A stretch of DNA of 64,000 nucleotides, taken from positions 1-64,000 of the forward strand of contig CAMPAL010000001.1 in assembly GCA_946631855.1 (NCBI GenBank), written 5' to 3'. Shown piece by piece: positions 51-50,615 of the stretch. A program made the position numbers and the translations under genes. Source of the DNA: an uncultured Treponema sp. (GTDB lineage: Bacteria > Spirochaetota > Spirochaetia > Treponematales > Treponemataceae). Positions within the stretch are counted from its first letter, which is position 1; each line of letters opens with the position of its first letter. Under the pieces are notes generated by a model. The model searched no databases and was not told where the DNA came from. It saw nothing but the letters and a program-made list of their open reading frames with translations.

Positions 51-1142
51 ATGAAAGTAGATGCAGTTATTGGAAGTTCATTTGGGGATGAAGGAAAGGG
101 TACTATAACAGCTCGTCTTGCTTTTGAAAGTAAAAAAGAAGATAAAAAAGTTCTCAATGTACTCACAAACGGAGGCCCACAAAGAGGTCATTCTGTTACT
201 CTTGCAAACGGAACTCAAATTATAAACAAACATTTCGGCTCAGGTACATACTTTGGAGCAGACAATTACTTTTACAAAACTTTCATTCTCAACCCAATGC
301 AATTTATCAAAGAAGTAAGATCCTCTCGGTGTTATATTCACCCTGACTGTATTTTTACAACTCCTTTTGATATAATGGCAAATCAAATTATTGAAAGAAA
401 AAGAAATGCAGGGACTTGTGGAATGGGTATTTGGCAAACAATTATCCGTTATAAAGATTGCCCTTTTTCAACAACATTCAAACATTTTATTGAAAGCAAA
501 ACTTTTGAAAAAATCCAACTTTTAAAAGGTATTCGTAAATGGTATGAGAAAGATTTGACAATTCCAAAAGATTACTCTGAAGCCTGGTATTCAGATGGTA
601 CAATTATGCATTTTATTGAAGATTGCAAAACAATGGGTTTGAAGTGTGCCTTTGGTTTGAGTCAAAAAGAAATGCATTCTTTTGATCATGTTATTTTGGA
701 AAACGGGCAAGGTTTGCTTTTAAATGACGAAGGCAAAGATGATAAAGATGCAACCCCAAGCAAAACGGGAATGGATATTATAAACGATTTTTGTTTGACT
801 TATAATTTGCAAAATCCGAATATTCATTATGTAACTCGCCCATATATTACCCGCCACGGTGCAAAAAGCAGAGACTTTTTGGGTAAAACAAAACTTGAAA
901 ATATTGGAATTGATTTTACAAATGACAGAGAAATAAATAAAGAAGGAGAATTTCAAGGGGATTTTGAATACGGCAATTTGGATATACATGAATTGTATAA
1001 AAGAGTTGTAAATGATTTCAATAAAAGTGTAATAAAAGGTTCAAAAATGATTTTGGATGTAACGCATCACGATCAAATGTCAAGAGACTGGAAAGGCTTT
1101 GAGAATGTAAATTATTGGACTAACCCTGTTGTGGGAGAGTAA
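51..1142 (+). CDS. Adenylosuccinate synthetase-like protein (PurA/PurZ family)
   Basis: N-terminal GSSFGDEGKGTITARLA (PurA GDEGKG loop), NGGPQRGHSV, ENGQGLLLND, VTRPYITRHGA; CTATATT motif 7 nt upstream of ATG. Confidence 0.8.
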   Translation: MKVDAVIGSSFGDEGKGTITARLAFESKKEDKKVLNVLTNGGPQRGHSVTLANGTQIINKHFGSGTYFGADNYFYKTFILNPMQFIKEVRSSRCYIHPDCIFTTPFDIMANQIIERKRNAGTCGMGIWQTIIRYKDCPFSTTFKHFIESKTFEKIQLLKGIRKWYEKDLTIPKDYSEAWYSDGTIMHFIEDCKTMGLKCAFGLSQKEMHSFDHVILENGQGLLLNDEGKDDKDATPSKTGMDIINDFCLTYNLQNPNIHYVTRPYITRHGAKSRDFLGKTKLENIGIDFTNDREINKEGEFQGDFEYGNLDIHELYKRVVNDFNKSVIKGSKMILDVTHHDQMSRDWKGFENVNYWTNPVVGE

Positions 1143-19627: not shown

Positions 19628-20365
19628 ATGAATAATAATAAGGTGAAAAATTGCAGCTTTATTGTTGTAATTTTAGCAATGGCTTCTGTTATTTTTAGTG
19701 TAGCTGCTAATCAAGTTTCAGGAAGATTAGGCTTCTTTGGGCCTTTCGCAGCTCCTTTGGGTGTGTTTTATTTTCCTTGCATTTATGTTATTTCTGATAT
19801 TCTTTCAGAAGTGTATGGTTATAGAATTTCCAGATGGGTTTCCTGGATTACCTCTTTTGTAAACATCATATTCCTCGGATTAGTTCTTGGTGTAATTTCC
19901 ATTATCAAACCGGTACCGTGGTGTGAAGATTTAAATCAAGCCCTTTGGGATGTAAATGGAACCTCATTCAGAGTGGTAGTAGGATCTATATTAGGAGCGG
20001 TTTTAGCTGGATGGGTTAATGATATTATTTTTCAAAAGTTTAAACATAAGGAAGGAGAAAAGGGTTTTGCAAAAAGAAAACTTCTTTCTAGTTTAGCTGC
20101 AGAGGCCGTAGATACTATTACATTCATCACTATAGCTTTTTTAGGTACAATGCCTTTTAGTCCCCTTTCAGAAGGAGGATCTATTTACACTTCTGTATGT
20201 TCTTTGTATGTTGTACAGTTTTTATTGAAATACAGTGTTGAAGTAATAACAGAACCTTTAGCTCATCTTTTAGCTAAGAAATTGAAGAAATTGGATCCTG
20301 ATGCTTTCGAGGATAGAAGCAATTTCAATATTTTTGGTTTTGAGAAAAAGCAGAAAACAAACTAA
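19628..20365 (+). CDS. yhhQ: Queuosine-precursor transporter, YhhQ/VUT (DUF165) family
   Basis: Multi-TM; GPFAAPLGVFYFPCIYVISDILSEVYGYRISRW; GAVLAGWVNDIIF; AAEAVDTITFITIAFLG; EVITEPLAHLLAKKLKKLDPDAFED. Confidence 0.85.
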   Translation: MNNNKVKNCSFIVVILAMASVIFSVAANQVSGRLGFFGPFAAPLGVFYFPCIYVISDILSEVYGYRISRWVSWITSFVNIIFLGLVLGVISIIKPVPWCEDLNQALWDVNGTSFRVVVGSILGAVLAGWVNDIIFQKFKHKEGEKGFAKRKLLSSLAAEAVDTITFITIAFLGTMPFSPLSEGGSIYTSVCSLYVVQFLLKYSVEVITEPLAHLLAKKLKKLDPDAFEDRSNFNIFGFEKKQKTN

Positions 20366-20493: not shown

Positions 20494-21354
20494 ATGAAAA
20501 AATTAACAGATGAGGTCATATTCCTCAAATCCCTAGAGAATTTCTCTACTCTATTTTTAGAGTATGGTGGAAATCAAAAATTTCAATTCATTTGTGAAAA
20601 ATGCAATCACTCTCAAACCCTTCCAAAGAAAAGAATTAAAAAACTTCAATCCTTAAAATGTTCAAAATGTAGAAGAAAAGAAACTAATCTGCAAAAATAT
20701 GGAGTTGAAAATATTTTTCAGGATACTAAAAGAATTGAAAAGGCCTGCATTTCAAAGCTTGGAGTATCAAACCCTCAGCAATTAAAGACTGTAAGAGAAA
20801 AAACTAAGAAAACTAATCTAGAAAAATATGGATGTGAAACTCCTTTGCAATTAGAAAAATCTAAAGAAGCATCTAGACAAAATTGGAAAGAATGTAAAGA
20901 TACCAGAATTGAAAGAAGAAGAAAAACTTGCAAAGAGAAGTATGGAGAAATTCATTTTTTAAAAACAAACGAAGGAAAAGAAAAATAGGAAAACACTTGT
21001 AAGGAAAGATTTGGGTGTAAAAGTTCATCTCAATCAGAAGTTGTTAGACAAAAATTAAAGGAGGCTTGGGCTAAAAAATCAGAAGAGGAGTTAGTAGCTA
21101 TAAAGGAGAAGTATGTATCTACTTGTTTAGAAAGGTATGGAGTTGAAAGCTCTTCACAATCTCCTGAGATTCGGAAAAAAGGAAAGTCTAAAATTAGAAA
21201 GGATGGACAATTGTTCGATAGTAGTTGGGAATTGAAAGTTTTTGAATTTTGTAAGGAAAATTCAATTCCTGTAAAAAGAGAACCTGTAGTTTTAGAATAT
21301 GAATTTCAAAACAAAAAATGTAAATATTTTCCTGATTTTGAAGTGAACTACTGA
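20494..21354 (+). pseudogene. Zinc-finger / VSR-like homing-type nuclease, interrupted by in-frame TAG and truncated by an IS200/IS605-type end
   Basis: LQKYGVENIFQ / LEKYGCETPLQ repeats as in 60348-61355; TAG at 20986-20988 then same frame continues ENTCKERFGCKSSSQSEVV...FDSSWELKVFEFCKE...YFPDFEVNY. Confidence 0.8.
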
Positions 21355-21415
21355 TTGGCTAAAGACCAATCAGCTTCCAACTTTATGTTGTTTCCAACAA
21401 TGAGTTTGGACTTTC
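21341..21415 (-). mobile_element. Solo right end (RE/omegaRNA-like) of the IS200/IS605-type element
   Basis: 75 bp gapless match to 49211-49285 with conserved hairpins CTGATTGG-ctaaaga-CCAATCAG and GTTG-tttc-CAAC. Confidence 0.85.
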
Positions 21416-21526
21416 CTGTATATTTTAATTTTGCTATTTATCAAACCTTTGTATAAAGGTCATCTATTCTTGCATTAATATTTTGAAATTCCATTTCTAT
21501 ATAATTTAAAATACCATTGAAAGTAT

Positions 21527-21955
21527 TTACATCGGCTTTGTCAAATTCTTTTTTAACGGATTTAAAGAAAGGAATTCTTTAACGTTATAATATCTCCAAA
21601 GGTTCATTGGATTCCATTCAAGAAGGCCACCCTCTTTTATTGTACAAAAACCTTTAACGAGGCAAAAAGTTAATATTGGAAAATTTTTAAAATCCCAATT
21701 TGTAACAATTGGGCTTCCAAATTCCTTTCTAAACTTCTCCACTTGTTCGTAAGTAGGCTCATCATACTTTAGACGAATCACTCCTTCTCGAAACTTTGAA
21801 AAATCTATTGGAAGATTTTTCGGAAGATCAACCCATTTACCTTCGGTTTCTTCATATTCAAGGGTTGCACCTCTGTCGTAACAATTTTTTAAAAACTTTT
21901 GAGATTCACTCAATTTTTCCTTAAACATTCTTTCCTCCTCTAAAATATCCTGCAT
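21527..21955 (-). CDS. Hypothetical protein
   Basis: 142 aa ORF. Confidence 0.55.
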   Translation of the reverse strand: MQDILEEERMFKEKLSESQKFLKNCYDRGATLEYEETEGKWVDLPKNLPIDFSKFREGVIRLKYDEPTYEQVEKFRKEFGSPIVTNWDFKNFPILTFCLVKGFCTIKEGGLLEWNPMNLWRYYNVKEFLSLNPLKKNLTKPM

Positions 21956-49210: not shown

Positions 49211-50590
49211 AAGTGAACTACTGATAGGCTAAAGACCTATCAGCTTCCAACTTTATGCAGTAACCTGCAATGAGTTTGGACTTTCTTCCTTCATAGAACT
49301 TCGTAGTTCTCCAGAAGCATTTGTAATTTCGGATGGTTCCCTTCCTACTATGCCAAGACTAGTCACACCTTTTTTCAAGATGTTTTTGGCTGCATTTATG
49401 TCACGGTCGTGCTCTTTTGAGCAGACTGGGCATTTCCATTTCTTTATTCCAACAACTACTTTTGGATTTACGTAACCGCAATCAAAGCAAGTTTTTGAAG
49501 TATCTTTTGCAGGTACTTTTACGAGATTTGTTTTGTAAGCAATCATGTCTCGTAACATTCCAAAGCCCTGATCAGAAACAACTTTTCCGTGATGTAGATT
49601 TTCAGACATATTCTGAAGATTGATGTTTTCTACAATCACATACTCAAATTTGTTTGCTAAATCTCTACTCACTTTGTGAAGCCAATCTTTTCTTTGCAAA
49701 GCTACTTTTTCGTGTAGCTTTGCAACTTTGTACTTGGCCTTCAAATAGTTGTTGGAATCTGCAATTTTCCTAGACTTTTCCTTTTGATAATGTTTTAATT
49801 GCTTTTGCTTCTTTCTCAAAAACCTTGGGCACTTGATTTTCGTACCATTGCTCATTGAGATGAAGTCTTCATCATCGCAGTTCCAATCTATTCCAATTGC
49901 TTTTCCATTATGTACTTTTGGTTCTTCTTTCTTTTCAACACAAATCTTTACAAACCATTTCCCTGTAGCTGTCCTTCTGAATGTGATATTCTTCCATTTA
50001 CCTTGAGCAAATCTATGAGCTCGAATATCAATGTAACCAAGTTTGTTTGTTAAGAACAATCCATTTTCATCTATTTTAGGGTTACAGTTTGAACAGCTAT
50101 ATCTGAATGAATCCTTTGGATTCTTTTTACTTTTGAGTTTTGGAGGTTGAACGAATTTTCCTTCTCTTTGACCTTTACAACTTTTGAAGAAGTTTGTATA
50201 AGCAGCCCTTACATCTGACCACATTTGTGCAAGTGGAATTGAGCAAGCAGCTTCTTTTGCCCATTGCAATGCTTCAGGTTTGTACTTTTCAAAAATTGGT
50301 TTGTAACCTTGAATCATCATATCATGATTTTCGTTTTTGTTAGCTACAACAATATTCCAATACAATCTACATAAACCGAGAGTTTGGTTGAAGGTATTTT
50401 CTTGATCTTTTGTTGGATAGATTCTGAATTCGTAAGCTTTCAACATTTTCTTCAACCTCCTTTTAGTTAGTGTAAATTGTTTTATTATATTTAGTGTCTT
50501 TTCAAAATATATAATAATTATAGTTAATGGAAATGTTTTGAGTCGATTCATCCTATCGACTAAAGATCAATAGGTTTTCTCGACTCGTTC
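49211..50590 (-). mobile_element. IS200/IS605-type element carrying tnpB only (right boundary approximate)
   Basis: RE hairpin CTGATAGG-ctaaaga-CCTATCAG at 49221 region; LE hairpin CCTATCGA-ctaaaga-TCAATAGG at 50552-50574 with same loop; no tnpA ORF. Confidence 0.8.
49253..50446 (-). CDS. tnpB: TnpB RNA-guided nuclease
   Basis: MLKAYEFRIYPTKDQ; RuvC motifs AIGIDWN, VIVENINLQNM, DRDINAAKNIL; zinc finger CFDCGYVN...CPVCSKEHDRD; RBS aaaggaggttg. Confidence 0.92.
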   Translation of the reverse strand: MLKAYEFRIYPTKDQENTFNQTLGLCRLYWNIVVANKNENHDMMIQGYKPIFEKYKPEALQWAKEAACSIPLAQMWSDVRAAYTNFFKSCKGQREGKFVQPPKLKSKKNPKDSFRYSCSNCNPKIDENGLFLTNKLGYIDIRAHRFAQGKWKNITFRRTATGKWFVKICVEKKEEPKVHNGKAIGIDWNCDDEDFISMSNGTKIKCPRFLRKKQKQLKHYQKEKSRKIADSNNYLKAKYKVAKLHEKVALQRKDWLHKVSRDLANKFEYVIVENINLQNMSENLHHGKVVSDQGFGMLRDMIAYKTNLVKVPAKDTSKTCFDCGYVNPKVVVGIKKWKCPVCSKEHDRDINAAKNILKKGVTSLGIVGREPSEITNASGELRSSMKEESPNSLQVTA

Positions 50591-50615
50591 ATTATAAATA
50601 CAGAGGGATAATTCT

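Follow-up and report, generated by a model that had tools for sequence, protein, structure and literature searches.

The truncated right end and its insertion site

The stretch of DNA analysed here (the window, 64,000 nucleotides) represents most of a 66-kb contig from a 2.65-Mb metagenome bin. At the locus under study the end of an IS200/IS605-type tnpB element lies between two convergent genes, directly against the broken end of a homing-nuclease gene, and an uninterrupted paralogue of that gene is found further along the window. The features of the locus are as follows:

20494..21342, plus strand: truncated DUF7487 (PF24308) homing-nuclease gene (Pfam and PHROG matches, translation and paralogue alignment)
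21323..21342, minus strand, read from 21342 down to 21323: would-be guide flank TTCAAAATCAGGAAAATATT, beginning directly after TTCAC
21343..21415, minus strand: last 73 nt of the right end (RE) of a tnpB element, with two 3' hairpins and the TTCAC terminus (ungapped match to 49213-49285; covariance model)
21527..21955, minus strand: 142-aa open reading frame upstream of the truncated RE, on the same strand
60348..61355, plus strand: uninterrupted DUF7487 paralogue, with TTTAT on the minus strand at 61156-61160

A preliminary description of this DNA had identified 21341-21415 as a tnpB-less right end of a TnpB element that aligns without gaps to the RE of the intact element (49211-49285), and both points were borne out. 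The two stretches are identical at 67 of 75 positions (89%; E about 1e-22 in a search within the genome), no tnpB was found near 21343, and a 40-base pattern derived from 21341-21415 occurs at only two places in the window, here and at the intact RE (0 in 100 shuffles). The truncated copy shows the marks of the RE of an IS200/IS605 tnpB element, namely a subterminal hairpin, a conserved loop and a TTCAC-type terminus. All eight differences with respect to the intact RE are located inside the two predicted hairpins. Six of them form three compensated base pairs, one in hairpin 1 (A-U to U-A) and two in hairpin 2 (C-G and A-U to U-A); two more change the loop of hairpin 2 (GUUA to GAAA), and no pair is broken. 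The paired changes previously noticed in both hairpins are genuine, and they are not random: when eight random substitutions were simulated, three compensated pairs appeared in 6 of 200,000 trials (chance about 3e-5), and the arms covary across the family.

A search with the RE hairpin retrieved 76 stretches from GTDB genomes and a further 15 from IMG/VR. The layout arm-GGTCTTTAGCC-arm-(R)TAGTTCA is common to the family; the next base is fixed within a subfamily (a C in that of the truncated RE and in most GTDB copies), and beyond it the flank varies. Since the RE of this subfamily terminates in TTCAC with variable flank beyond it, the edge of the element is placed at 21343 and the start of the guide at 21342, which corrects the end initially set at 21341, where the extra matching TT belongs to the flank. 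TTTAT precedes the left end (LE) in the intact copy, in a second copy on contig C13 and in most viral relatives, and it is the predicted target/TAM of the subfamily.

On the plus strand, the frame of the nuclease gene stops at ..KCKYFPDFE and then enters the RE, and the 3' half of the gene is gone. The gene also has an in-frame TAG at codon 165 (near 20986). Recoding of TAG was rejected as its cause, the open frames of the window being barely longer when TAG is not read as a stop. Past the YFPDF region, uninterrupted paralogues continue with ..INGKLIEIKG (contig C4) and ..YKGELIEIKG (60348-61355). At the very codons of the insertion, the C4 paralogue presents TTTAT followed by TTCAAAATCTGGAAAATATG, which matches the would-be guide at 18 of 20 positions (C4:51227-51246), with mismatches at guide positions 10 and 20. 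This site is in effect an empty one, so that the truncated RE is best taken as the product of a genuine, normal insertion; the fixed target is seen through the C4 paralogue, the LE side of the truncated copy itself being lost. The flank had been described as part of a homing-nuclease gene, and it indeed lies in one of the DUF7487 type that has a TAM-flanked counterpart in a paralogue. The resemblance proposed for 61131-61150 in the paralogue of the window holds as far as the TAM, which is present; the site is shifted by one base and has several mismatches beside the TAM, and C4:51227-51246 is the better match. The search for targets yielded the TTTAT-flanked site in C4, and no match to TAM plus guide was seen in the viral contigs. 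The 142-aa frame on the other side of the truncated RE has no Pfam or PHROG match, and no relatives of it were found. The C4 contig also encodes a protein in which a DUF7487 homing nuclease runs on into a C-terminal part resembling a DNA methyltransferase (L137 10282-12222; DPFSGFSG..TCPPY, recognized by eye), and a similar protein is found on C2.

Seven contigs of the bin (C1, C2, C4, C7, C13, C16 and C32) share a common tetranucleotide signature (r 0.85-0.94 to C1), and the other eleven sampled contigs show r values of 0.68-0.77 to C1. On account of this signature and of the phage-type genes found, we infer that the seven belong to one huge phage, about 315 kb when summed, that was binned with the bacterium; C4 is probably part of the same huge phage as the contig with the truncated RE. 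This contig encodes a PurZ-like adenylosuccinate synthetase (phrog_1211, window 51-1142) and a family A DNA polymerase with 3'-5' exonuclease (window 58124-60238), which together could point to phage DNA with 2-aminoadenine. Its metabolic genes comprise those for a nicotinate phosphoribosyltransferase (34937-36226), a cytidylyltransferase-like protein (37805-39256) and a Vut_1-type vitamin-uptake transporter (19628-20365).

Full copies of the element and the 5' core of the scaffold

The element against which the truncated RE was compared is complete, and its parts are the following:

49213..50593, minus strand: intact tnpB element from LE to RE (edges by comparison with the C13 copy and viral relatives)
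49253..50446, minus strand: tnpB, starting MLKAYEF, with RuvC motifs and zinc ribbon (Pfam OrfB_IS605, Cas12f1-like_TNB and HTH_OrfB; resembles ISDra2 TnpB structures)
49213..49345, minus strand: full omegaRNA scaffold, about 133 nt (alignment, covariation and model)
50552..50574, minus strand: subterminal hairpin of the LE, whose CTTTAG loop is also that of the RE hairpin (sequence)
50594..50598, minus strand: TTTAT target/TAM beside the LE (same five bases in the C13 copy and most viral relatives)

The relatives of this tnpB begin at the same Met. One viral relative, about 80% identical (L014 6001-7155), has a single in-frame TAG in the middle of the gene and is likely a decaying copy. The copy on C13 (C13:21317-21596; L003 1503-1782) spans 280 bp and lacks tnpB, and contains the LE, TTTAT, the RE and a complete omegaRNA scaffold, in which the 5' helix shows a compensatory change (GGA/TCC to CCG/CGG). 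Because both ends and the full scaffold are kept without tnpB, its sequence recommends it, more than the truncated RE, as a candidate for a guide RNA that acts in trans. The intact and C13 copies have the only LEs of the family in the bin, and neither of them is near 21343.

The full copies carry a scaffold of ~130 nt, whose best conserved part in seven of them (C13 included) is the region from -133 to -74, with the blocks AGGGAAC, GAAATTA, AAATGC, GGAGAAC and a TATGAAG-like one. This region is conserved in C13 although TnpB is no longer encoded there. The 5' core so defined comprises helix 1, the presumed pseudoknot strand GAAA, the AAATGC..GGAGAAC block and the AGAAC/GTTCT stem; it is present in the intact copy, five viral relatives and the C13 copy, and missing upstream of 21415 (position -73), where the homology of the truncated RE ends. 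Beyond this point local alignments of the truncated RE with full copies scored no better than those of shuffled sequences (p 0.32-0.87); over the same part, by contrast, the intact copy and that of C13 scored 63, with a shuffle maximum of 25. The covariance model gave 145 bits for the intact copy and 130 for the C13 copy, which both belong to its training set; the truncated RE scored 60.5, and the GAAAUU stretch is deleted in its alignment. A match of this model to 21343-21467 was considered as a diverged 5' half and rejected, given that the invariant blocks are missing, the similarity is at chance level and GAAAUU is deleted. No relevant Rfam family was retrieved for the intact, truncated or C13 copies, even at E up to 5.

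Of the parts of a functional omegaRNA, the truncated RE therefore has the 3' hairpins and the terminus and lacks stem 1 and the pseudoknot strand of the 5' core; of the parts of an intact element, it lacks the LE and tnpB. In ISDra2, the terminal UUC pairs with positions -105 to -103 in a pseudoknot placed beside stem 1 (-116 to -86) (PMC10097598), and the GAA of GAAATTA would be, from its position and sequence, the counterpart of that strand here. An RE deprived of it should be unable to form a working TnpB guide. This argument is strong but not absolute, since some TnpBs process RNAs down to a length of 79 nt, as found in one survey (PMC10278001).

Origin of the truncated copy and meaning of its paired changes

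The stretch 21343-21415 is very probably dead, the truncated remnant of an IS200/IS605-type tnpB element that inserted by TTTAT in the homing-nuclease gene and later suffered a deletion, and most likely an ordinary decayed remnant of a known kind. Besides the match with its compensated pairs, the empty site in C4 and the missing 5' core, this reading is supported by the nonsense codon also present in the host gene, by the absence of an LE and by how common truncated REs are elsewhere. A rough census by motif and tblastn covered 46 GTDB copies that have 1.5 kb or more of upstream sequence: 29 had no detectable tnpB and 16 of these 29 also lacked a recognizable core. Judged by these copies, a right end cut short in this way looks like the ordinary debris that such elements leave.

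As for the order of events, which like the loss of activity we infer, a full element (LE, tnpB, full scaffold and RE) would have inserted beside TTTAT in the DUF7487 gene of the huge phage, downstream of the YFPDF motif and upstream of IEIKG, with inactivation of the nuclease gene. A later deletion or recombination event would have taken away the 3' half of this gene and, from the element, the LE, almost the whole of tnpB and the 5' half of the scaffold. The paired changes would reflect a constraint acting on full elements while the source of the truncated RE and the intact copy diverged, imposed by the guide RNA and, for hairpin 1, also by its recognition as single-stranded DNA by TnpA. In this scenario two selfish nuclease systems compete in one genome, probably that of a huge phage: a TnpB element disrupts a homing-nuclease gene and subsequently decays.

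The claim that the paired changes indicate selection on the RNA structure of this particular copy fails, given that they could predate the truncation and that hairpin 1 is a TnpA-type DNA hairpin as well. The covariation is a trait of the whole family, probably inherited before the truncation, and the changes show selection on the lineage and not on the truncated copy; compensatory changes between two copies of an element do not prove that a truncated one is a working RNA. Hairpin 1 is constrained in two ways, as RNA and as a DNA hairpin of the TnpA type, because its arms vary around a fixed loop throughout the family and the LE shares that loop, and in the present comparison the two constraints look inseparable. 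That its paired changes stem from selection on a DNA hairpin read by the TnpA transposase, instead of on RNA, is a serious possibility, though on balance we doubt it. In its favour, the LE hairpin has the same loop and lies outside the guide RNA, and in REs throughout the family, both those with tnpB and those without it, the arms covary around a fixed loop; however, hairpin 2 and its outer stem, which are not known TnpA sites, covary too, which argues for RNA. Both pressures can act together, and selection by TnpA does not compete with the reading of the truncated RE as a dead remnant.

The proposal that the truncated RE is a source of guide RNA was not supported, owing to the missing 5' core and presumed pseudoknot strand upstream of 21415. 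According to it, a transcript through 21343 would load the phage TnpB and aim it at uninterrupted homing-nuclease genes, and we regard it as very unlikely. The intact 3' hairpins with their compensatory changes, the TAM-flanked 18/20 match of the adjacent guide in a paralogue, the nuclease motifs retained by TnpB (49253-50446) and an upstream frame on the same strand that could supply the transcript, with no terminator predicted in between, are all consistent with it. Besides the loss of the core, it is opposed by the near-match itself, which probably lies in the same phage, so that an efficient guide would risk self-cutting; by the lack of a TAM-plus-guide match in viral contigs; and by promoter-like sites that are no more frequent than in shuffled sequences. 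If the truncated RE still guided TnpB, it would show how the debris of a transposon can provide a phage with a guide of its own against rival homing genes.

The 73 nt are unusually intact: the eight differences all lie in hairpins, none breaks a pair, and the copy starts just 5 nt before the outer stem of hairpin 2, for which reasons the two hairpins might conceivably have kept a function. Their retention for another job, such as ending transcription, would suit two stable hairpins placed between genes that point towards each other, but a terminator-like site was looked for there and none was found, and the left gene is itself broken; there is little probability in this explanation. Hardly to be credited is a minimal or split guide RNA, in which the 73-nt 3' half and the guide would be transcribed and the 5' core provided by another RNA (e.g. 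from the intact or C13 copy), with TnpB directed to the region of the catalytic motif in sibling homing-nuclease genes, where TTTAT is found in the same codons. An assembly chimera at 21415/21416, with the rest of the element existing in the real genome, is most improbable: the metagenome bin is split into 217 contigs and 77% complete, and no relative spanning the junction was found in viral contigs with the RE or RE/hairpin-2 patterns, or by the 3' part of the truncated nuclease gene, but beyond the intact and C13 copies the bin contains no LE or second close tnpB of the family.

Comparison with known systems

The truncated RE has in common with tnpB-less miniature (MITE/PATE-like) derivatives of IS200/IS605 elements an RE without tnpB, the 280-bp C13 copy being a real example of these; MITE-like elements keep both ends, whereas the truncated copy has only the RE and does not form a mobile unit. 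Stand-alone, trans-encoded omegaRNAs were reportedly described for OMEGA systems by Altae-Tran in 2021. They resemble the truncated RE in being scaffold-like RNA sequences away from the nuclease gene, and they differ in that a complete scaffold is expected there and only the 3' half is found here.

In ISDra2, an IS200/IS605 element, the UUUA loop is placed at -20 to -17 and the TAM is TTGAT (PMC10097598). As in that element (PMC8612924, PMC10097598), the RE described here ends in TTCAC after a UUUA-loop hairpin, the T-rich 5-nt TAM stands beside the LE and the guide is the flank after the RE; the truncated copy differs in having neither LE nor tnpB and only the 3' half of the scaffold, and the TAM is TTTAT instead of TTGAT. 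TldR proteins, relatives of TnpB that have lost the nuclease activity, are encoded by phages and act with guide RNAs (PMC13418256). They are likewise a TnpB-derived system in a phage, from which the present case differs in a TnpB that retains its nuclease motifs, with no regulatory target or linked guide gene found.

RE copies with the same type of hairpin are present at no fewer than 26 loci (L059, L061, L062, L064 and about 22 more), in the bin of the Methanosarcinaceae archaeon STD2_68 (JAQVBP MAG). Most of those with enough upstream sequence lack tnpB and several retain the scaffold core, so this single genome may, judging from these copies, hold many tnpB-less elements of guide-RNA-like type.
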